Shown one piece after another: positions 6,549 to 25,229 of a stretch of DNA of 37,993 nt (within the stretch, counting starts at the first letter, position 1; each line of letters begins with the position of its first letter). Made by a program: the position numbers and the translations under genes. Source of the DNA: Bacillota bacterium (GTDB taxonomy: Bacteria > Bacillota > Sulfobacillia > JAJZYS01 > JAJYTV01). The notes below the pieces were generated by a model. That model did not search any database and had not been told where the DNA came from. It worked only from the letters and a program-made list of their open reading frames with translations. The stretch lies in contig JAJYSJ010000023.1 in the NCBI GenBank assembly GCA_021793645.1, positions 1-37,993 of the forward strand, written 5' to 3'.

Positions 6549-6900
6549 CCCGCCCTGCCGAACCTCGGCAGCGTCCCGTTCACCGATGTGGACCAGCAGA
6601 GCTGGTACGCACCGAACGTCGACGCGATGTACGCCCAGGGGGCACTCGCGAACCTCGGAACCACGACCTTCGCGCCGAACCAGCCGATGGATAGGGAGGA
6701 CGTGGCGGCGCTGAAGATCCCCGCAGGAGGCACCCTGCATTTCACGGACCTTTCGCAGATTGCACCGGCTGACGTCCCAGCGGTCGAGGCCGTGGCTACA
6801 TGGCCGGCTTCACGAACGGCAGCTTCCAGCCGCTCGGTGAGGTGACGCGGGCCCAGACGGCGAGGCTCCGTAAGGCAACCTCGAACTGCAAGGGGGGCCC
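6549..6900 (+). pseudogene. SLH-domain protein, frameshifted C-terminal remnant
   Basis: One frame reads LPNLGSVPFTDVDQQSWYA and continues with VDAMYAQGALANLGTTTFAP, NQPMDREDVAALKI and HFTDLSQIAPADVPAVEAVA. Near 6795 the reading shifts to GYMAGFTNGSFQPLGEVTRA followed by QTARL. These are consecutive SLH-repeat signatures (FxDV, W-(Y)-A-x-x-V, GxxxGxxxGxFxPxxxxTRAQ). No start codon or upstream half is present and the frame is broken, so this is the tail of a lost S-layer-anchored protein. It stands directly upstream of the large surface-protein gene. Nothing further is seen between 6900 and the next start. Confidence 0.75.
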
Positions 6901-7066
6901 CGGCTGCGCAAGCGGCTGGGGCCTCTTCTATGGGCGGGTGATGCCTTGCCAGATTGAAGGACAAGGGCCAAAGGGCGTAGAGTCGACCTTTTGCACAGGT
7001 CCACCGGTCTCCTTGTTCCAGGGCCGTTCGGCCGATATTGTCGAAATGGGCCGAAAAAGGGAAGTA

Positions 7067-10000
7067 ATGTGCAGGATAACCCTTCCATCCACCGTATCCA
7101 GTATTGGAAGTCTCAGTAAGAGGAAGGGGTTTCATCTGAGCGTTTTACGACGGGTCTTCGCGGGCGTCCTCGGCACTGTGCTTGTCCTAGCCGGAGCGGC
7201 AGCGGCAAGCGCCTCTCCGGTGTCGGCGACTATCTCCGGTACGGGTACCTCGTCTACATCAGGCGGCACCTACACCTTCGACTACACGACCGATTCCGCC
7301 CTCAGTGTAGGGGACGCCGTCTACCTAGACCTATCGAATGCTCCCATCCTGTCGACGACACCGACGAGCCTCACGGTGCAGGACGCCACGTACGGCACCG
7401 CGGTGTCAACCTCAAATATTTCGTACAGTTCGAGCTCCTCGACCCTCGAGATCGACCTTGGGGGCAGCGTTACAGTGGGGACAGATCTCTCCATCTCGTT
7501 GCCTGGGAACCCCATGACAGCAGGGAACTACCCCGTCAGCGCCTGGAACAGCGCGAGCGGGCAGACCGTGGCCGCGAGCGGCACCCTGACGGTGACGAGC
7601 GCCAATGAGGTGTCGAACCTCATCACCTCCGCTTCGAACCCAGTCCAAGGCGAGTTCTCGAGTTTCACCGTAACCTTCACAACTCACACTGACCTGCCTT
7701 CCGGCGGGACCGTCACCTTATCCTTGCCAGCGTCCATCTCGAACACCCCGCAGTTCCCCGCGGGGGACGTTACGGTCAGTGCCAACAATACCTCGGTCCC
7801 GATCGGCACACCGAGCGTCGACAACAGTGGGAATCTCGTCGTCCCGGTACAGACGGCGATCAGCGCGGGCACAACGGTAACCGTTGTCGCAGGCGTGCAC
7901 GATGACTTCCAGATCTTCAATTCTGGGAACACAGGGGCCACCTCGGTATCTATGCCAGTGTCGGTCTACACCTCGGCGGACACAGCCACTGCGACTGTCC
8001 AGCTCCCGCTTGACGTCAGTGGCGGCACGCAGGTGCAGTCGGCCAGCGTCAACCCGTTCACTCTTGGGGCGTCAACCCCGTACAGTGTGTCTTCGCCGTA
8101 CAGCGTAACCTTCACGCCGACATCCACGGTGACGGGCTCGGTCTACGCGGTCCACATCGCCGGCATCCCCCTGAACTACGGCTACACGCCGACGATCACT
8201 GTGTCCCAGTCCGGAACAACCTACACCCCCTCATACGTCAGCGTGGTCAACCAGATCGTTACGGTGGCGGTTCCCCAGTCCCTAGTGGCAGATTCCCCCG
8301 TCACGGTCACGATCGGTTCCCTCGACGGCAACTCGGCGTTCGATCCGTTCAACCCGAGCAGCGGGAGCGTTGGCCCGTTCACGATCAGTACGGACGCGGA
8401 TACGGCGCCGGTGCAGGTCAACGCCTTGAACGTGGAGACATCTCCCCAGGCGTCCGGTTACCTCGGGAACCCGGTCGCGGGTCAACAGGACTCAGTCTCC
8501 GTCTCGTTCACGGCGCCGACGAGCGGCAGCACCGTGACGATCGATCTCACGCACAGCGGGCTCTCCTGGTCAGGCAGTAACCTGCCTGAGCTCGTACTCA
8601 GCGACGGCTCCTCACCGTCTCTTCTGCCGTCCGGCAGCTACTCGCTCACCAACAACGTGCTGACGCTGCAGTCTACGGCGCTGAGCAACGTCACTCCTGG
8701 CCAGACCGTGACCTTGCAGCTGCCGATGGTGAACGGGGCCACAGGGTCCGGCTACATCACCGTGTCCTCCTCTGACACGCAGGCGGCTGGCTGGTTCGGC
8801 TACGACATCGTGCCTCTACCGACGCTCACAGCGACCGATTCGTCGAGCGGTGCATCCGATACGCTGACGGTCTCCTTTGAGCTCGGAACCGCCGCGACAT
8901 ACATGCAGGGATATCCTGCGAGCATCCAACTTGATGTCTCGTCCCTAGCGCAGGCCGGAGTGACACTCCCCGCGCAGGCGACGCTCTCGCTCGGCGGGGA
9001 AGCACCCCAGACCGTAGCGACCAATGAGGCAAACGGGCAGATGACGCTTGCCGTCAATGAGAACCTCGTGGCAGGTCAGACGGACACGCTCAGCTTCGCG
9101 ATCACCAATCCGACCTTCGCGTCGGCTGACATCGGAGTGGATGCTGCATACAGCGCCTCCGTAGTGATCGGCCAAGCGAACTTCGCAGGTATCGTGGAGG
9201 ATGCCGCGGGCAACCCGGTTCCAGACGCCCAGCTCCAAGTGGCGGCTACGACCACGGACTCGCTCGCGACGGTGCCGAACATCACGACCGACGGCAGTGG
9301 TCACTTCGCCGCGCAGGTCGGGGCGGGCACCTACACGATCACTGGGTACTACGTACCGCAGGACCAGCAGTACGGCAACCTCTACGCACCAATCACCGTG
9401 ACGCCGACCCAAACTCCCGCGACGAATCTGGTTGTTCAAGCAGGCACTCCGAACGTCGCGGGACAGATCACGACCCCGTCGGGGATCAGCGACTACGATA
9501 TCTACGTCTACCTGCAGAACAGCCAGGGCCTCGCGGAGACCCTCACGACAGGAGAGGGAGGCACGCTGTCCGGCGTACTTCCGCCTGGAACCTGGGAGAT
9601 CTACTCGCTCTCCGCCTCGACGGCGACGGTCAACCTGAGTCCGACCCAAACACTCGTGGTACCGACCTCCGGCAGCGTAACGTGGAACTACGTCTGGCCG
9701 ACGCCGAACGCGTCGTTCACCGTGACCCAGAACAACAGCCCGATGCAGAACGCGTGGATCGAACTGGCGCCTTATGCGAATGGCCAGCCAGACCTCTCGC
9801 AGATTCAGTGGCTGGGCGGCACCGACTCGACCGGCGTGACAACCGGAAGCCTCGCGAACGGCACCTACGAGGTCGTCGCAGTGCAAGGACCGGACAGCTC
9901 CGGGAACTACGTCAACTACGACCTGACATCCCAGACGCCGATCATCGTCTCGGTACCGATGACGGGATCCCAGACGATCCAGCTGCCCACGCCGAACCTC

Positions 10001-11818
10001 AACATTACCTTAGGAACCGGTGGCCTGCCTCAAGGAGAGTCCCTTGGGTACGCCTTCGTCGAAGTGGCACCGGACAACGGCAGCGGTGCCCCGGACCTCT
10101 CGCAGGCCGAGTGGCTGCAGGCAAACGCGAGTGGTGCACTATCCACGACGGTGCCGTCCTCGCCATCCACCTGGTACGTCGTCGCCGTGCAGACGGCCGA
10201 CGGGGTGTACCAGGCGAACTTCGGATCGAATCCGGTTCCCATCATTGTCGGATCGTCCTCGACTACGGTCGCCTGGCCGGCAACATTGACGATCACGCTG
10301 GAGAATGCAGCCGGATCAGTGCTTCCCAACACCCAGGTGCAGATCGCCGCGCCGAACGGCGATGGGGCTTGGTTCGCCATGACGACCGATGGGAGCGGCA
10401 CCTTCCCCTTCGATGAGCCGGCGGGAACCACATGGCAGGTCATGAGCTACGGCGGCGTAGACCTGAGTGAGGCCTCCACACCGGTCACCTTCACCGTGCC
10501 GAATGCCTCCACGTACACGCTCCAGGTCCCGAACGCTACCGTCCAGGGTCAGGTGTTGGATGCATCCGGACAGCCGATCCCGAATGCCTGGATCACCTTC
10601 GCACCGCTAACCGGGGGCTCCCCCGACTGGAGCCAGGCCACGGGCACCCAGGCGGACGCCCAAGGCAACTACGAAGCGGTGCTCGGCGCCGGTGCTTGGC
10701 AGGTGCTCGGCTTCTGGGACCCCGCGACGACGTCGTGGGTGGATCTCAGTCAGGACGGCTTGACCTTCACCGTCTCGTCGAGCCAGACATCACCTACCGT
10801 TGAGCCCGTGCAAGTTCCGCAACCGAACGTCACCGGCACTGCGACCGGGCCTGACGGCAACGCACTCGCCAACGGCTACGTTGTGTTCATTGACTCCACG
10901 ACGGGCAACAGCGCTGTCCTGCCGACGGACGACAGCGGCGTGTTCAGCGGTGAGCTACCGAGCGGCACCTGGTCGGTGGGCTATCTGGTCTCCCAGGGCG
11001 GTGCCGAGGTGGCACTGCCAAACGTACCCATCTCATTGCCCACGACAAACCTCACCGTGAACTGGCCGACACCGAACGTAGTCGGGCAGATCACGACAGC
11101 CAGCGGCACGCCAATTCCGGGCGCCGTGCTCTTCTTTGCACCGGCGGGAACCGCCAGCCATGCCTCGACCTGGGTGCCGACCGTGGCCGACAGCCAGGGC
11201 GACTATTACGTGCAACTCTCTACAGGCGACTACCAGATCGTCGGTCTTTGGAACGACGGCCAGTTCCAGAGCATGGCCGAAACCGTGACCCCGCCCCAGA
11301 CGGGACAGATCACGTTGAACTTGCAGCTCTCAAGCACCCAGTTGGCGCTGGGGTCGAGCGGGGCGAACGCCGTGCTACAGATCGAGGCCGCAGGGAGCAC
11401 ATCTCCCTTCTACGTCCAGGCGGACGCCAGCGGCAGCGTGACACTGAACCTCCCGACCGGCTCCTACACCATCGTCGGCTACTGGGCCCAGGATGGCAGC
11501 TTCGTTCAGACCAACCAGGCAATCACCCTGCCGACGTCAGGTCCGGTACAGGTGAGCGCCACCACCATCACACCGCTTCAGATCGAGGTCAACAGCGTCG
11601 TGGTACCGTCGGTCGATGTCCTGCTCGAGAACACCGTAACGAGCCAGGAAGCGTGGTACGCCACGAGCGCCACGGGGCAGCTGTCCGGCCTCCCGGACGG
11701 TACATACCAGGTCCTTGAGGTGGCCCAGCCCGACGGCACGACGACCACTCCGTCGACAACGCTAACGTTCAAGGTCTCGGGCGGCACGGCGGACGCCAAC
11801 ACGCTGAACGTCCAATGA
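7067..11818 (+). CDS. Very large secreted protein with transthyretin-like (CarboxypepD_reg/Cna-B type) repeats
   Basis: The protein has about 1,583 residues from the ATG at 7067 (AGGGAA four bases upstream). A signal peptide is clear: VLRRVFAGVLGTVLVLAGAA followed by ASASPVSA. Residues from about 55 to 700 are Ser/Thr/Val-rich beta-type domains without a recognised family. From about nucleotide 9178 to the end there are roughly ten units of 80-95 residues, each starting near P-N-x-x-G-x-(I/V)-x-x-x-x-G-x-P-(I/V)-P-x-A and closing with G-T-Y/W-x-(V/I)-x-(G/A), as in carboxypeptidase regulatory-like or Cna-B folds. Unit starts lie near 9178, 9448, 9697, 9985, 10270, 10525, 10810, 11065, 11320 and 11570. 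No SLH domain, sortase motif or transmembrane anchor is present. A stronger Shine-Dalgarno, AGGAAGGGG at 7121-7129, precedes an in-frame CTG at 7136, which would give a more normal-sized signal peptide. The SLH partner follows after 22 bp, so the pair is probably one operon. Confidence 0.8.
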   Translation: MCRITLPSTVSSIGSLSKRKGFHLSVLRRVFAGVLGTVLVLAGAAAASASPVSATISGTGTSSTSGGTYTFDYTTDSALSVGDAVYLDLSNAPILSTTPTSLTVQDATYGTAVSTSNISYSSSSSTLEIDLGGSVTVGTDLSISLPGNPMTAGNYPVSAWNSASGQTVAASGTLTVTSANEVSNLITSASNPVQGEFSSFTVTFTTHTDLPSGGTVTLSLPASISNTPQFPAGDVTVSANNTSVPIGTPSVDNSGNLVVPVQTAISAGTTVTVVAGVHDDFQIFNSGNTGATSVSMPVSVYTSADTATATVQLPLDVSGGTQVQSASVNPFTLGASTPYSVSSPYSVTFTPTSTVTGSVYAVHIAGIPLNYGYTPTITVSQSGTTYTPSYVSVVNQIVTVAVPQSLVADSPVTVTIGSLDGNSAFDPFNPSSGSVGPFTISTDADTAPVQVNALNVETSPQASGYLGNPVAGQQDSVSVSFTAPTSGSTVTIDLTHSGLSWSGSNLPELVLSDGSSPSLLPSGSYSLTNNVLTLQSTALSNVTPGQTVTLQLPMVNGATGSGYITVSSSDTQAAGWFGYDIVPLPTLTATDSSSGASDTLTVSFELGTAATYMQGYPASIQLDVSSLAQAGVTLPAQATLSLGGEAPQTVATNEANGQMTLAVNENLVAGQTDTLSFAITNPTFASADIGVDAAYSASVVIGQANFAGIVEDAAGNPVPDAQLQVAATTTDSLATVPNITTDGSGHFAAQVGAGTYTITGYYVPQDQQYGNLYAPITVTPTQTPATNLVVQAGTPNVAGQITTPSGISDYDIYVYLQNSQGLAETLTTGEGGTLSGVLPPGTWEIYSLSASTATVNLSPTQTLVVPTSGSVTWNYVWPTPNASFTVTQNNSPMQNAWIELAPYANGQPDLSQIQWLGGTDSTGVTTGSLANGTYEVVAVQGPDSSGNYVNYDLTSQTPIIVSVPMTGSQTIQLPTPNLNITLGTGGLPQGESLGYAFVEVAPDNGSGAPDLSQAEWLQANASGALSTTVPSSPSTWYVVAVQTADGVYQANFGSNPVPIIVGSSSTTVAWPATLTITLENAAGSVLPNTQVQIAAPNGDGAWFAMTTDGSGTFPFDEPAGTTWQVMSYGGVDLSEASTPVTFTVPNASTYTLQVPNATVQGQVLDASGQPIPNAWITFAPLTGGSPDWSQATGTQADAQGNYEAVLGAGAWQVLGFWDPATTSWVDLSQDGLTFTVSSSQTSPTVEPVQVPQPNVTGTATGPDGNALANGYVVFIDSTTGNSAVLPTDDSGVFSGELPSGTWSVGYLVSQGGAEVALPNVPISLPTTNLTVNWPTPNVVGQITTASGTPIPGAVLFFAPAGTASHASTWVPTVADSQGDYYVQLSTGDYQIVGLWNDGQFQSMAETVTPPQTGQITLNLQLSSTQLALGSSGANAVLQIEAAGSTSPFYVQADASGSVTLNLPTGSYTIVGYWAQDGSFVQTNQAITLPTSGPVQVSATTITPLQIEVNSVVVPSVDVLLENTVTSQEAWYATSATGQLSGLPDGTYQVLEVAQPDGTTTTPSTTLTFKVSGGTADANTLNVQ

Positions 11819-11840
11819 ATTGCCGCGAAAGGAGCCCTCA

Positions 11841-14319
11841 CATGCAGCGCGCCGCAAAGGCACTCGCAACCTGCCTCTCGCTTGCCCTTCTCCTGGCGCC
11901 CGCCATCCCGGCAAGCGCCGCAGGCACGATCACCCTGAATCCCGGCGCGGTCACGGTCGGCTACGGCCCGACCCAGATCGCGATCGATACTCAGGCGGAC
12001 TTCGGCACCACACCGCCGCCCGTCTTCCTCCTGAACGCGAGCAGCCAACCCCAGGCCGAGGTCTCGGGCGTGCAGCTCCTGACCCCGAGTGACCTAGAGT
12101 TCACGTTGGAACCAGGACTCGCGGCCGGCAGCTACACCGTGGAGGTGGATCTCGCCGGCGGTACATCGCTCACGCAGCAGCTAAACGTCTTGACTCCGTC
12201 GTACACGCTGTCGTCCCAGACTCCCGCGATCGCCGGGTATACACAGGCGATCCAGTTCTCCGCCGCCGGCACGAACACCGACTTCGGTAGCCAAACGGCG
12301 GTGTCGCTGATCGACCAGAGCGGTGCGACGGTGTCGGGTGCGATCAGCGGAGTCGTCGTCCAGTCGCCGACCGCGCTCACGTTCAGCCTGGAGCCGGGCG
12401 TTCCCGCAGGCTCCTACGAGGTGGCGATCTCCGGCGTGCCGGGGCAGCAGCCGCTCACCGTGCAGCATTCCGGGGTCACTTTTAACCCCTCGCCCGTCGC
12501 GGAGGGCTACTCCGGCCTGATCCAGGCCACGGGCACGAACACCGAGTTCTCGAAGGGGATAACGGTCAGCTTCGAGACGGCGAGCGGTGCCCAGATGCAG
12601 GTTACGAACCAGACCGTGCAGACGGCCACCGCCATGTCGTTCGGGCTGCCGACGGGGCTGCCCGCCGGCACCTACACCGTGGTGTTCCAGGAAGGCCAGC
12701 AGACGGTGAAGCAACCCTTCACGGTCCAAGCGGCGCCATCGTTCTCCTTCAGTCCCGCGCTTCTACCAAGCGGCTACCAGCCGATGCCTCTCTCGCTGAC
12801 CGGAGTCGACACCTTCTTCTCCAGCGCGACGACCAAGGTCAACCTCCTTGGTTCCTCGAACGCCTCTGAAGACTCGTACCTCGCCTCCGTCCAGTTCCAG
12901 AACGGGACGCAGGCCACGGTCAACCTGATGAAGGGCTTACCCGCCGGCACCTACACCTTGCAGGTCGCAGTAAGCTCCTACCCGACGCTCTCCACGACGC
13001 TGACCGTGTCCACGAGCAGCAGCGTCTCGAGCGGCGGCACCTCCTCGAGCGGCGGCACCTCCTCGAGCGGCGGATCGACAGGCGGTTCCTCCGGCGGCAG
13101 TCCGTCCTCAGGGGGCGGTCCGACACCTCCTCCGAGCACGAGCAGCAGCGGCACCGTGAACGTGACGACAGCGACAACCCAGGCGACGCAGGCATCTACC
13201 ACGTTGTTCACCGTAAACCCCCAGCTGCTCGCGGACGCGCTCGGCAGCGCCCAGGGCCAGACGGCGCAGATTGAGTCCGCGTCTGGGGATGCCGCACTGG
13301 TCCTTCCATCCCAGTCAGTGCAGACTCTGATCCAGGACAAGGACCAGATGGAGTTCTCGACGCCAAGCGCTTCCTACAACCTTCCGCTGCAGGTTCTGCC
13401 CATGGCGCAGCTCGCCGCGGCCCTCGGCACGGCGAGCGGTTCGGACGTGTCCCTTGAGATCAGCGTCCAGCCCGCGTCGAGCGCGGATCAGGCGGCGCTC
13501 ACGCACGCCTTCGGCGTAAAGGATGTCCTCGTCTCGCCGGTGTCCTTCTCCGTAACGGCGAGCGCGAACGGCAAGACGGTGCCGGTCGGCAGCCTGGGCG
13601 GTTTGGCGCAGAGCACGCTGACGCTGCCGTCCGGCACGGTCGCCGGGTCCGATACTGTCGGCGTCGTGCTCGTGAACGGCACACCGCAGCACGCCAGGAC
13701 CACGATCTCGGGAAACACCGTGACCTTCTACTCTGAGACCGTTTCCACGTTCGCCGTGGTCGCACACCAGACGAACTTCTCCGACATCGCTGGCCTGCCC
13801 CAGGCGACAGCGATCCAGGCACTCTCGGATCAGCTCGTGATCGACGGTTTCACCTCGTCCCTCTTTGAGCCGCAGGGAGGAGTCACCCGGGCCCAGTTCG
13901 CGGCGTTCATGGTGCGTGCGCTCGGGCTCTGGAACATCGGCGGCGTCAACGCGAAGTTCTCCGATGTGCCTTCGAGCTACTGGGCGGCTTCCGTGATCCA
14001 GTCTGCGGCTACGGAGAAGTTCATTGACGGCTTCCCAAGCGGCAAATTCGAACCCGGTGCCCAGATCACGAACGAGCAGATGGCTGCGATCGTCGCACGC
14101 GCGATGGCATACCTCGGCATCGGCCAGGGCAAGGAGACGGCCCAGCCGAAGGACGCCTCGCAGATCCCATCCTGGGCGCAAAGCGACGTCGACCTGGCGC
14201 TGTCCCAGGGCATCATGTCCGTCAACGCGCAGGGCGACTTCGCACCGCACGCGGTGACGACCCGCGCGCAGGCGGCGCAGATCATCTGGAACCTGATGCA
14301 ACAGGCTGGCATTCAGTAG
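11841..14319 (+). CDS. SLH-anchored surface protein with Ig/IPT-like repeats
   Basis: This 825-residue protein starts at an ATG with AAAGGAG nine bases upstream. It has a signal peptide (MQRAAKALATCLSLALLLAP then AIPASA). Four beta-sandwich-like units of about 95 residues follow, each with a GY-x-x-x-I-x-(x)-x-A-x-x-T-(N/D)-T-x-F start and an L-P/A-A-G-(T/S)-Y-T/E-V end. A Ser/Gly/Pro linker spans about residues 390-445. A domain of about 200 residues follows, and three SLH repeats at the C-terminus begin near residue 645 (TNFSDIAGLP, KFSDVPSSYWAASVIQ, QIPSWAQSDVDLALSQGI). SLH domains bind pyruvylated secondary wall polymer, so the protein should sit on the cell surface in or under the S-layer. 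It may hold or organise the much larger product of the gene 22 bp upstream, which has no anchor of its own. A strong terminator follows. Confidence 0.88.
13027..13080 (+). repeat. 18-bp tandem repeat encoding a Ser/Gly linker
   Basis: The unit TCGAGCGGCGGCACCTCC occurs at 13027 and 13045 and again, partly changed, at 13063. It encodes SSGGTS repeats in the linker between the Ig-like part and the cell-anchoring half of the SLH protein. Such short in-frame repeats can expand or contract by replication slippage, altering linker length without breaking the frame. Confidence 0.8.
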
Positions 14320-20807: not shown

Positions 20808-22835
20808 TCAGAAGAGCTGCTGCGGGCTCTGCAGCGCCTGCGCGAGGCGCAAAACCCAGATCGCGAAGGCGCCGCGGCTGACGGGGCTATCTGGACGGAA
20901 GGTGCCGTCGGGATAACCTTCGACGATGCCGTCTTGCTTCGCCGCCGCAACGTAGCCCGCGAAGCCCTGCGGGATCTGCGCTGCGTCCTTGAAGTTTGGG
21001 GGCGTCGTTAGGGCGGGGATCCCATAGGCGCGCAGCATCCAGGTCGCGAGCTGCGCGCGCGTCGCGCTCGCGCCGCTCTGAAAACCGTCCTGCGGCAGAA
21101 TGACGCCCTGGGCATCTGCCCAGGCGATCGCATCTGCGGCGAAGGCGGGCGCGTCCTTGGGCAGCGGCGTCCCGGCGGGCAGGGCGGGCGAGCCCAGCGC
21201 GCGGTAGAGCATCGTGATCGCCTGGGCATCCGTGACCTCGGCGTTCGGCCGGAAGGTGTGGTCGAGGAAGCCCTGGACGAGGCCGGCGGCGCTTGCGCCG
21301 TCGACGGCGTACTGGAAGGCTGCGGAGCTGGAGGCGTCCGTGAAGGGCGCCTGCGACAGGTTGTAGTTGCCGAGCACCTGGCTTTGCGCACCGTCCGTGA
21401 CCTTCACCTGCGTCACGTCGCCGGACACCTGGTAGGCGAGGTAGTGTGAGCCCGCGTAGACGGGGCTGCCGATCGACGCGCTTCCCTGAAGCCACTGGTA
21501 GCTCAAGATGTATGCGTTCTCGAGGTTCTGGCCGACGACGAAGAGGTACCCGCCGTCCGAGAAGACCTTCGCGACGCGGGGCGCCAGGGCCGTCGTGAAG
21601 GACCACTGCTCTTCAAAGGGCTGCACGGCGCCTGTCTTGAGGGTGAGGGATCCCTGCATGTCTGCCGTATAGGTGGTGCCGTAGGCGAGCGGCGCCTTCG
21701 GGAAGAGGGCGACGCTCGTGCCCATCGTCTCCCCGCCGTACACAGTGTTCGTATCCTGGTAGTCCTGGCTGTCGACGAGGTATGCCGGCACCTGCGCGCC
21801 CGAAGGGCCCGTGAGGGTCGCGGACGAAACCGAGACGCCCGATACCTTGCCTGGATCGAAGGTCACGCTCACGGGATAGCCGGACTCCGGCGATGCGCCG
21901 CCCGATGTGACGCTCCCTGGCGCGATGCCTGCGAGCGGGTCGGGGTCCTCGCCTAGGAAGGCCGTCTGCACGTGCGCTTCACCGTTCCAGGGGAACTCCA
22001 CCGCGAGCGGCCCAGTGCCGCTGAAGACGGTCGTCATGTCCGAGACGTAGGCCTGCGTGGAGTTCTCGGACGTCATGGGGGATGCGGCGTAGCCTGCCCC
22101 GAGCGCACTGAGGGTGGGGTCCAGGAGCGCGAAGCGGTGGAAGGTGGTGTCGTAGAGCCCGAGGAGGCTCCAGGCGGCGGTCAAGGTGTTCGTCGACATC
22201 ACTTCGTTGCCGCCGCCCACGGCGCCGAACGCGCTGTCGCGGTCGCTCGGCTGGTTGCCCGTGTACCCCGGGGCGGTGCTGCTCGGCTCGCTGTGCACGC
22301 TCACCGACAGCGGATAGAGGCCGCTGTTTTGGACGTAGTACTGGGCATGGGCCTGCGACGCCGCCTGCAGCGCGGGGTCGAAGGCGACCGTGGAAAGGCC
22401 CTCCTGCGAGCGCACGTAGTTGACCATGCGCAGCGACTCAAGGCTCGTGAGCGACTGCGGTGAAAGGCTCTGGGCAGCGCCTTGCGCCACCGAGAACTGC
22501 AGTGTCTGCGTGAGCGGATAGTAGCCGGGCGCGGTGACCGACAAGGTCGCCTGGTAGCTGCCCGGCTGGAGCGCCGAGGGCCAGGTGTAGACGCATGCGC
22601 TCTGCTTCGGGTCGTACGGCATCGTCACTGTCTGCCCTTGGAACTGCAGCGTGCAGGTGACGGCAGTATTCGTGCCGACTTCGATCTGTTCGGAGAAGAC
22701 CGGCGTCGACACCTGCAGGGTGACTCCGCTCGGCTCCGGCGGGTAGTAGCTGTAGTCCGCCTGTGCGACGCCGGCGCAGGAGATGAGCAGCGATAGGGAA
22801 ACCGCGGAAGCGAATAGAATATTAATGCGCACCAT
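20808..22835 (-). CDS. Secreted CAP (SCP/PR1-like) domain protein with C-terminal SLH repeats
   Basis: This 675-residue surface protein starts at an ATG with AGAGAGGGA five bases upstream. The N-terminal signal is hydrophobic and ends in AQADYS; an upstream LISC could alternatively act as a lipobox. An Ig-like unit spans about 25-115. A CAP domain follows at about 125-290, with MVNYVRSQEGLSTVAFDPAL, HAQYYVQN, HSEPS and HRFALLDPTLSALGAGYA marking the conserved helices and histidine. A beta-rich region with a bacterial Ig-like unit precedes three SLH repeats from about residue 490 (FTDASSSAAFQYAVDGASAA, AADAIAWADAQGV and PQGFAGYVAAAKQDGIVEGY). SLH repeats bind the wall polymer. CAP domains in bacteria have no settled reaction. 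The promoter region is shared with the divergent ferric-reductase-like gene. Confidence 0.88.
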   Translation of the reverse strand: MVRINILFASAVSLSLLISCAGVAQADYSYYPPEPSGVTLQVSTPVFSEQIEVGTNTAVTCTLQFQGQTVTMPYDPKQSACVYTWPSALQPGSYQATLSVTAPGYYPLTQTLQFSVAQGAAQSLSPQSLTSLESLRMVNYVRSQEGLSTVAFDPALQAASQAHAQYYVQNSGLYPLSVSVHSEPSSTAPGYTGNQPSDRDSAFGAVGGGNEVMSTNTLTAAWSLLGLYDTTFHRFALLDPTLSALGAGYAASPMTSENSTQAYVSDMTTVFSGTGPLAVEFPWNGEAHVQTAFLGEDPDPLAGIAPGSVTSGGASPESGYPVSVTFDPGKVSGVSVSSATLTGPSGAQVPAYLVDSQDYQDTNTVYGGETMGTSVALFPKAPLAYGTTYTADMQGSLTLKTGAVQPFEEQWSFTTALAPRVAKVFSDGGYLFVVGQNLENAYILSYQWLQGSASIGSPVYAGSHYLAYQVSGDVTQVKVTDGAQSQVLGNYNLSQAPFTDASSSAAFQYAVDGASAAGLVQGFLDHTFRPNAEVTDAQAITMLYRALGSPALPAGTPLPKDAPAFAADAIAWADAQGVILPQDGFQSGASATRAQLATWMLRAYGIPALTTPPNFKDAAQIPQGFAGYVAAAKQDGIVEGYPDGTFRPDSPVSRGAFAIWVLRLAQALQSPQQLF

Positions 22836-22947
22836 GTATTCCCTCTCTTTTTGGGCGGCCCCCACAAATCGACACGGTATGACGTACTCTTCTACTACCA
22901 CGGGTCCCGTTTCCTGTCCAGATGGACGAGCAGGAGGAGCGTGGCGG

Positions 22948-23616
22948 ATGCTCGGCAGGCTTTCACCGGGGCAGCAGGCAGGCGGCGTCTTCGCACTGCT
23001 CCTCGCCCTGCTCGTCCTGACCGTACGGGCGGTGCCCGCGACCCCGTACTACGAACGCTTCTTGCCCTGGATCGTCGCGCGCGGGGTCGGCCTCACTGCA
23101 CTTGTCCTCCTGACAGTCCTTGTTTCCTTGGGCATCCTCTTGAGCCATCCGCTCAATCGGAGCGTCTGGCGCCAGACGAAGGAGCTCCTCGTCTGGCACC
23201 GCTATCTGTGGACGTTCGTGATTGCGCTCATTGCGGTGCACGTCGTCGCGATCCTGCTCGACCGCTACGCGCACGTCAGCCTCTTCGGCGCCCTCGTGCC
23301 GGGCCTTTCGGGATACCGCGCGCTGCCGGTAGCGCTCGGGACGATCTCCCTCTACGCCCTCCTCTTGACCGCCGCAAGCGCAGCGTACGCGAAGCTTTTG
23401 CCCGCCGGCCTTTGGCTGGGGATCCACCGCTGGGGCGCCCTCGTGTTCGCGCTCAGTTGGGCGCACGCCCTGCTGACCGGCACGGACAGCCTTGCGCTGC
23501 GGCCTTTCTACCTCTTTCTCCTGGCGGTCGTCGCCGTGAGTGCCGCCGTCCGCTACTGGATGGCGGTGCCAAGGCCCCAAGCCCCGCAGGCCCGGAAAGG
23601 AGACAGCCCATCGTGA
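22948..23616 (+). CDS. Ferric-reductase-like transmembrane protein
   Basis: This 222-residue protein has six membrane helices. Two histidines in HRYLWTFVIALIAVHVVAIL (about residues 88-107) and two in HRWGALVFALSWAHALLTG (about 158-175) are spaced as the bis-haem ligands of the ferric-reductase/MsrQ/NOX transmembrane domain. No FAD or NAD(P) domain is attached, so electrons must come from a partner or the quinone pool. The ATG at 22948 is chosen with AGGAGG ten bases upstream; an in-frame extension back to 22783 is a shadow of the divergent gene. Its stop codon overlaps the GTG start of the next small gene (GTGA), implying translational coupling with two small envelope proteins. Confidence 0.8.
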   Translation: MLGRLSPGQQAGGVFALLLALLVLTVRAVPATPYYERFLPWIVARGVGLTALVLLTVLVSLGILLSHPLNRSVWRQTKELLVWHRYLWTFVIALIAVHVVAILLDRYAHVSLFGALVPGLSGYRALPVALGTISLYALLLTAASAAYAKLLPAGLWLGIHRWGALVFALSWAHALLTGTDSLALRPFYLFLLAVVAVSAAVRYWMAVPRPQAPQARKGDSPS

Positions 23617-23978
23617 ACATCATCGCCCGGCGCACCTTGACCGCCATTGGTACAGTCTTCGCCCTCATGGGAGCGACAGCGGCGGTGCACGCCGTGTCCC
23701 CGCCGCCTGCGGTCGGGAAGGGTGTCCAGCACTCCCTCTCGAAGGAGCTCGCGGCGCAGCAGACGACCGGAGCTGCACTGCAGTCGGCACTGAACAAAAC
23801 GGAAAGCGCCCAGCTGACCGCAAGCGCGACCGTGTCCGCCCTGAAGGAGACGCTTTCCGTGGCGCAGCAGCAGGCGCTTATCCGCACAGCGGCCGCAGCC
23901 GCGAGCGCGCCCGTCGTGCACGCCGTCACCGGCGCCTCGGGCGGCGGGGACGATGGCGGCGGGGGTGGCGATGACTGA
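23613..23978 (+). CDS. Small secreted protein coupled to the ferric-reductase-like gene
   Basis: The 121-residue product starts with GTG (AAAGGAG nine bases upstream), overlapping the preceding stop by four bases. It has an N-terminal hydrophobic segment (LTAIGTVFALMGATAAVHA) that looks like a signal peptide or anchor. The middle is alanine/glutamine/serine-rich and probably helical with coiled-coil character. The tail is rich in glycine and aspartate (GGGDDGGGGGDD), which could bind metal cations. A VVHAVTGASG motif near the end recurs, slightly changed, in the next protein (VPAVHATSGASG), so the two are related at their C-termini. No known family. Confidence 0.7.
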   Translation: MNIIARRTLTAIGTVFALMGATAAVHAVSPPPAVGKGVQHSLSKELAAQQTTGAALQSALNKTESAQLTASATVSALKETLSVAQQQALIRTAAAAASAPVVHAVTGASGGGDDGGGGGDD

Positions 23979-24351
23979 GAAGGCCCCGGCGGCGAAGCCC
24001 ACCACCGTCCACTGGTGGAAGCTCTTTGTCGCGATCGGCCTCACCGCGCTCGGCTACACGCTCGCACTGCGGCCGGTGCTCTCTTCCGTCAACAGCGAAG
24101 CGGCGCAGGCACAAAGGGCCGCGAAGCTCTACGCCAAGGTGCGCGCGCTTGCTGCGCGCAATGCTGCGCAGAGCCGCCTCTTGCATCAGCAGGCGCTCAA
24201 GCTGACGGCCACCCTGCGCGAGGAGAACGGCCTGCGCAGCGAGATCGCAAAGGTGGAGTCGCAAGCGCCCCCGCCCGCGGCTTCGGTCGCCGTATCGGGC
24301 GTTTCGGTGCCAGCGGTGCATGCGACGAGCGGCGCATCGGGGCTCCCATAG
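23971..24351 (+). CDS. Small single-span membrane protein with coiled coil
   Basis: This 126-residue protein starts with an ATG that overlaps the end of the preceding gene by eight bases, and GGCGGGGGTGG within that gene serves as ribosome site. It has one membrane helix (about residues 16-36) after a short basic cytoplasmic segment, then a heptad-rich helix of about 60 residues (EAAQAQRAAKLYAKVRALAA and onward), and a Pro/Ala/Val tail with a histidine. The topology suggests the coiled coil lies outside the membrane, close to the previous small protein. Together with the haem-binding membrane protein it forms a three-gene unit of unknown role. Confidence 0.65.
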   Translation: MTEKAPAAKPTTVHWWKLFVAIGLTALGYTLALRPVLSSVNSEAAQAQRAAKLYAKVRALAARNAAQSRLLHQQALKLTATLREENGLRSEIAKVESQAPPPAASVAVSGVSVPAVHATSGASGLP

Positions 24352-24563: not shown

Positions 24564-25181
24564 CTAAGAGCTGTAGACGGCACACGAGCGGCAAAGGATC
24601 CGGCCATCCTTCACAGCGGCTTGCTGCTCGAAAACATACTCACCGCAGTCTTGGCAGCGGATCCTTCCGGGGCTTGCGGGCGCCGGGCGGAAGCCGAACG
24701 CCGGAAGGTGCTCGAACGTGAAGAGTTCCTGCGCGCTGAGGCGCGTCACATAGCCGACGGCGTTGGAAAGCGCGGCCTCGGGCACCGCTGACGCCAACTT
24801 CCCGCCTCGGCGTTCCGCAGCATAGCTGCCCCGAGCCAGTTCGTCACAGACGTCCGGCCGCAAGGCGATGCGCAGCGCTCCCTCACCAGGGCGGGCGAGG
24901 ACGGCGGCCACTTTGCCCAAGTCGTGGCTGCGCAGCGTCCCCTTGCCCGCAGTGCAGCCGGTTGCGGCCTGCAGGCCATCTGTGTAGCAGGACTGGGGCC
25001 TTAGAGCATCGCCGCCCAGCTCCGTGAAGACAAAGAGCCCTTGGTCCCGCTCGCGATCCACTTTGAGCTGGGCAAGAGCCTCCTGCCCCATCCGCCAGCC
25101 GACGACGAGGAACGGACAGAGGTGGCCGTGGAACTCCTCGAGCCAGAGCGGCATTCCCGTCGCGATCCCGTGTTTCACCAT
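24564..25181 (-). CDS. FmdE-family protein with C-terminal zinc finger (copy 1)
   Basis: This 205-residue protein has the FmdE core motif FHGHLCPF at about residues 16-23, SCYTDGLQAATGCTAGKGTL near 70, and a C-terminal treble-clef type zinc site CQDCGEYVF...CRSC. FmdE was named for a gene linked to molybdenum formylmethanofuran dehydrogenase in methanogens, but most bacterial members have no known reaction; the Cys/His core suggests metal or redox chemistry. The ATG at 25181 is chosen because AAAGGGA lies eight bases upstream, rather than the one seven codons earlier. It is divergent from a TDT-family exporter, with 126 bp between start codons, and a similar gene sits next to a TauE exporter at 29136. 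Confidence 0.88.
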   Translation of the reverse strand: MVKHGIATGMPLWLEEFHGHLCPFLVVGWRMGQEALAQLKVDRERDQGLFVFTELGGDALRPQSCYTDGLQAATGCTAGKGTLRSHDLGKVAAVLARPGEGALRIALRPDVCDELARGSYAAERRGGKLASAVPEAALSNAVGYVTRLSAQELFTFEHLPAFGFRPAPASPGRIRCQDCGEYVFEQQAAVKDGRILCRSCAVYSS

Positions 25182-25229
25182 TTTGCGATCCCTTTCCGCC
25201 ATACGTGTTCAGCCCAGCCCACAAGGGCG

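Follow-up and report, generated by a model that had tools for sequence, protein, structure and literature searches.

A candidate MsrQ-like electron-export module with predicted ApbE flavin tags on small anchored proteins in a Sulfobacillia genome

Three overlapping genes in the window, by which we mean the whole 37,993-nucleotide stretch of DNA analysed here, are best read as an MsrQ-like, ApbE-dependent electron-export module. The first gene (g1) encodes a predicted membrane cytochrome, and the other two (g2 and g3) encode small anchored proteins whose C-terminal tags would carry flavin, probably attached before export. We assign this reading a probability of roughly 0.7. As judged from sequence comparison, the trio appears to work like the flavinylation-linked MsrQ-like systems already described, and its novelty would lie in the domain-less flavin carrier.

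Gene trio and membrane cytochrome

The three genes lie on the forward strand at 22948–23616 (g1, 222 residues), 23613–23978 (g2, GTG start, 121 residues) and 23971–24351 (g3, 126 residues). Adjacent genes overlap by 4 bases (g1/g2) and 8 bases (g2/g3), which bears out the overlapping starts and stops reported in a preliminary description of this DNA. Shine-Dalgarno-like sequences precede g1 and g2, and all three genes exhibit the G+C distribution by codon position that is typical of coding sequence.

Searches with g1 identified homologues in 36 of 154 genomes of the class. The order g1-g2-g3-apbE recurs within the genus (L019), in another genus of the family (L020), in another family of the order (L051) and in Sulfobacillus-like genomes (L059, L060 and L062), while family f18 has the order g2-g3-apbE-g1. 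The trio also occurs in Sulfobacillus acidophilus. A contig search with five sequences returned four MAG loci from close relatives (Bacillota YF1.bin87, DX1.bin88, SKS1.bin49 and MAS3.bin149), which we take, from the isolate names, to originate from acid mine drainage. The preliminary description had proposed looking for the three-gene order in other genomes, with absence of the small genes beside homologues counting against it; because the order recurs, such absence is not what we found.

g1 is predicted to be a cytochrome of the MsrQ/ferric-reductase type with six transmembrane helices. Six long helices are present in its AlphaFold model (pLDDT 70), and four histidines, H84, H98, H160 and H173 (forward-strand codons at 23197, 23239, 23425 and 23464), are invariant across an alignment of 16 trio-type homologues and are candidate haem ligands. 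PF01794 (Ferric_reduct) is matched by 8 of these 16 proteins, with a best E of 5.4e-9. The g1 of the window has no PF01794 match at E ≤ 1, and none of the three trio proteins has a useful Pfam match. Its 222 residues comprise the membrane part only, with no FAD- or NAD-binding domain. Structural comparisons gave weak matches: SpNOX was the best Foldseek hit for the model (E 0.27) and was also recovered when the g1 profile was searched against PDB sequences (E 0.13). Z scores of 7.3–7.9 against Dcytb and cytochrome b561 add little, because unrelated helical proteins score equally.

These features agree with the preliminary description of a membrane protein bearing four histidines and lacking a flavin domain. 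Its proposal of a trans-membrane electron-transfer or metal-reduction module holds in its first half. The family-level Ferric_reduct matches, the invariant histidines and the tie to ApbE make trans-membrane electron transfer a well-supported prediction, whereas metal reduction was a guess from habitat.

A weak match to the NCBIfam MsrQ model in 2 of the 16 g1 homologues, together with the two-component systems that adjoin some distant MsrQ-like operons, could indicate methionine-sulfoxide repair of the MsrPQ type, with g1 as MsrQ. We consider this very improbable, as the scanned neighbours of the trio (S-layer/CAP, FmdE, SLAC1, TetR and others) include no molybdopterin reductase (MsrP), and the partner genes instead encode the tagged proteins.

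In the window, a CAP-domain protein with S-layer-homology repeats is encoded divergently from the trio (20808–22901, reverse strand), and another genome, G003, likewise encodes one like it upstream of g1 (L071 2026–4113). Further away, at 6800–14319 on the forward strand, the gene for a 1672-residue protein with carboxypeptidase-regulatory-like and SpaA-type repeats overlaps that for an 834-residue S-layer-homology protein, possibly forming a surface pair. On the other side, the gene at 24564–25202 (reverse strand), convergent with the trio and divergent from a SLAC1/TDT-type channel gene, encodes an FmdE-like protein that carries a DksA/TraR-type zinc finger.

Tagged tails and the ApbE partner

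g2 features an N-terminal signal or anchor, a probably helical middle and a Gly/Asp tail, and ends in VHAVTGASGGGDDGGGGGDD. g3 has one transmembrane anchor and a helical stalk, modelled as a single helix over residues 15–97, followed by a disordered tail that ends in VPAVHATSGASGLP. Neither protein matches a Pfam family, including FMN_bind (PF04205). Both carry [T/S]GAS near the C-terminus: TGAS in g2 (T106–S109, 23928–23939, forward strand), which is kept in relatives, and SGAS in g3 (S120–S123, 24328–24339, forward strand). The shared motif matches [S/T]GA[S/T], onto which ApbE moves FMN from FAD according to two surveys (PMC8238504, PMC11334425). Both proteins are therefore predicted ApbE substrates, with S109 and S123 as putative FMN sites. 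The preliminary description had noted the Gly/Asp-rich tail and a motif common to both proteins, which it termed VHAxxGASG-like. Both are present, but it did not recognize the motif as an ApbE flavinylation site and missed the usual apbE neighbour. The two proteins, which it called related, share an N-terminal hydrophobic segment and the motif and have no other evident similarity.

The full ApbE motif is D-x-x-[S/T]-G-A-[S/T]; seven residues suffice, and terminal positions are best (PMC12052999). The Asp position is occupied by His in the small proteins of the window and by His, Gln or Val elsewhere, with the canonical Asp found only in g2 proteins of family f18 (DTFTGAS, DTVTGAS and DTTTGAS). 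In one case studied, replacing this Asp with Ala made only a small difference (PMC12052999). Among the 14 loci found through g1 alone (window included; L021, which breaks off within g2, and L053 left out as contig-edge loci), 13 have at least one TGAS-tailed gene beside g1 and 12 have two, while shuffled tails contain the motif in 2–3.5% of cases. Because the motif served to choose the rows of our small-protein alignments (A2 and A3), its invariance in them partly reflects that choice; independent tests come from these 13 of 14 loci and from the [S/T]xxS* count given below.

apbE adjoins g1 in 13 of the 15 trio-type loci with enough sequence to judge its neighbourhood, the exceptions being the window and L052. 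No apbE, FMN_bind, DUF2271 or DUF3570 gene occurs among the Pfam-scanned neighbours in the window. The genome nevertheless carries two apbE genes, one on contig C50 in a second cluster and one, trio-like, on contig C92 (7891–8622). The protein encoded on C92 matches ApbEs of known structure (1vrm, E 1.6e-17) and is 64–70% identical to the trio-adjacent ApbEs of two other genomes (G002 and G008). It falls within the trio ApbE clade of a tree whose groups are partial, because 26 of 62 rows were lost to a crude extraction. The orthologue of the trio's ApbE is detached from the trio in this genome. In its present location (L018, C92 4983–8718), it lies behind a gene that looks by eye like one for a large molybdopterin oxidoreductase and a small membrane-protein gene.

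Since the genome of the window encodes no FMN_bind, NqrB/RnfD or DUF2271 protein, its ApbE is left without a known substrate. In all 10 genomes of the family, ApbE is present and FMN_bind is absent. Within genus g4, one genome (G055) has both g1 and ApbE, and its sisters (G053 and G054) have neither.

It is conceivable that the conserved tails are not flavinylated and serve in assembly with the cytochrome or in other processing, with the target of ApbE elsewhere. Flavinylation is a prediction from sequence, the motif Asp is mostly replaced, and the tag is lost from both small genes in L055, where the gene before apbE ends in TRGS*, and from g2 in L056, where g3 alone retains it. However, the tails bear the ApbE motif and are encoded next to apbE, no known substrate is encoded in the genome, and Ser/Thr-x-x-Ser also ends the small proteins of a second, independent set that lies beside signal-less ApbE. 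Taken together, we find this explanation distinctly improbable.

The location of the tails bears on a further alternative. ApbEs of the trio group start 8–26 residues before the catalytic core, with few exceptions, and have no signal peptide or hydrophobic segment; of the 10 ApbEs that could be read in those genomes of the class that encode FMN_bind, 9 have a hydrophobic N-terminus. The tails might accordingly be flavinylated and remain cytosolic, their FMN serving as an electron-input flavin that replaces the same-chain FAD/NAD domain of ferric reductases and NADPH oxidases. The absence of a flavin domain on g1 fits this arrangement, as do the charges flanking the g3 anchor, which do not fix its topology in the window and are balanced or slightly C-in-favouring in some members. 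Against it, the N-termini of g2, and of g3 in f18, resemble signal peptides or N-in anchors. The corresponding small proteins of the order of G217 (probably Paenibacillales) have Lys/Arg before the transmembrane segment and a Ser/Gly/Asp-rich hydrophilic part after it, as expected for a C-out orientation. We therefore regard cytosolic tails as unlikely. Twin-arginine export of g2, suggested by an RR pair, was set aside as the pair is not conserved.

For the electron-export module, we infer a sequence of events that would begin in the cytosol. The signal-less, presumably cytosolic ApbE encoded on C92 would use FAD to load FMN onto the serine in the [T/S]GAS tags of g2 and g3, and loading before export would avoid the export of FAD. 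The tagged proteins would then be inserted via their N-terminal hydrophobic segments with the N-terminus inside, so that a helical stalk or flexible linker holds the flavin tails outside. As a putative two-haem b-type cytochrome, g1 would be reduced by the quinol pool or by a cytosolic reductase and would reduce the tethered flavins on the far side of the membrane. These flavins may in turn relay electrons to an extracytosolic acceptor. Among acceptors we would consider Fe(III) first, on the sole ground that it is reduced by S. acidophilus, which bears the trio, and by other Sulfobacillus (PMC8790237). The service of a cytosolic ApbE to an outside tail is an unproven element of this scheme. 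The His at the motif Asp position in the window, the tag losses in L055 and L056, the separation of apbE from the trio in the window and L052, the missing Pfam match of the window g1 and the weak structural matches all count against the module.

Relation to known flavinylation systems

An MsrQ-like flavinylation system has been defined as a Ferric_reduct protein encoded within five genes of apbE, FMN_bind, DUF2271 or DUF3570 (PMC8238504). These systems (Meheust et al. 2021, PMC8238504; Huang et al. 2024, PMC11334425) share with the trio a six-transmembrane cytochrome with conserved histidines, of the PF01794 type in half of the aligned g1 homologues, and a tie to ApbE and to [S/T]GA[S/T]-bearing proteins. 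Relative to them, the trio has no FMN_bind protein, domain-less tail substrates, a signal-less ApbE and no NAD-binding domain, and in the window apbE is not adjacent. The window cluster lies outside the published definition, since apbE is not adjacent and none of the listed substrate domains is present. Clusters entered the 2021 survey only when one of the ApbE, FMN_bind, DUF3570 or DUF2271 genes encoded a signal peptide or lipidation site, and orphan apbE remained in 4% of its genomes (PMC8238504). The trio-group ApbEs have neither a signal peptide nor a lipidation site.

Other ApbE substrates (FMN_bind/NqrC/RnfG, DUF2271, DUF3570, Flavodoxin_4 and FMN_red) possess a similar [S/T]GA[S/T]-like site, but all feature a folded domain around or near the flavin, in contrast to g2 and g3, where none is evident. 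Flavodoxin_4 and FMN_red substrates appear in the 2024 follow-up, which describes a folded FMN reductase extended at its C-terminus by an unstructured segment that bears the sites (PMC11334425). The engineered flavin-tag (Tong et al. 2021, as cited in PMC12052999) demonstrates that a short terminal peptide suffices for ApbE; that design is artificial, whereas the one proposed here would be natural. The ApbE of Klebsiella pneumoniae that acts on fumarate reductase is likewise signal-less and flavinylates its target in the cytosol (PMC12052999), as proposed for the trio. However, its target is a soluble enzyme, whereas in the trio membrane-anchored tails accompany a membrane cytochrome. A ferric reductase or NADPH oxidase combines its membrane part with FAD- and NAD-binding domains in one chain, and g1 has neither domain. 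In the text of the open-licence papers searched, we came across no account of tagged tails that lack a domain.

The trio offers a candidate substrate for ApbE in genomes without a known partner, a gap left by the 2021 survey in the form of orphan apbE. It suggests that in nature flavin may be carried by no more than a C-terminal peptide, and that an ApbE located in the cytosol can support electron transfer out of the cell. For Gram-positive acidophiles such as S. acidophilus, the trio may also supply candidate genes for such outward transfer. In the part of the ferric-reduction review available (PMC8790237), mechanistic work concerns Acidithiobacillus, and ferric reduction by Sulfobacillus is listed without a mechanism.

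Short anchored proteins before signal-less ApbE in other Bacillota

A similar arrangement occurs elsewhere in Bacillota, where a small anchored protein is followed by a signal-less ApbE and then an MsrQ-like protein. MsrQ-like homologues are present in 104 of 298 genomes of the order of G217. We selected open reading frames by their position before apbE and a hydrophobic N-terminus, ignoring their C-terminal ends. Serine is the last residue in 42 of the 44 distinct frames, all 42 of which have Ser or Thr at −4. Among 512 control frames of the same loci, 48 end in serine and 24 also have Ser/Thr at −4 (Fisher p = 2e-35 for the serine end, with related loci not fully independent). Typical ends are TRAS, THAS, TGAS, TGRS, TRRS and TNVS, with exact TGAS ends in the small proteins of L080, L081, L083, L097 and L101. 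The two exceptions are a frame that overlaps a good one in another frame and a 69-residue frame. The [S/T]xxS* end is not an overlap artefact, since the serine codons vary. It may represent a relaxed form of the ApbE tag.

These observations tip us slightly towards a widespread, hitherto undescribed class of ApbE substrates in Bacillota: short, anchored, domain-less proteins that would be flavinylated in the cytosol at the serine of a C-terminal tag and exported as flavin tethers for an MsrQ-like cytochrome, the tag being TGAS near the end in the trio or [S/T]xxS* at the very end in others. If true, such a class would supply extracytosolic flavin without the export of FAD.

Short anchored [S/T]xxS* frames directly before signal-less ApbE and MsrQ-like genes were seen at L080–L088 and L094–L156, in many Bacillota genomes. 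At L055, L069 and L085–L087, where frames were read by eye, the MsrQ-like/ApbE clusters lie beside a response regulator and a histidine kinase, a setting that recalls the neighbourhood of E. coli msrPQ.

The second ApbE cluster of the window genome (L017, C50 8185–10565) encodes an 85-residue anchored protein ending in TQTSVS*, a signal-less ApbE and an MsrQ-like protein. HHVTGVT in this small protein was considered as a tag and set aside, the C-terminal [S/T]xxS being more general. The MsrQ-like protein has an extra C-terminal domain of about 190 residues, which appears to be extracytosolic, and clusters of this type are kept in nearly all genomes of the family.
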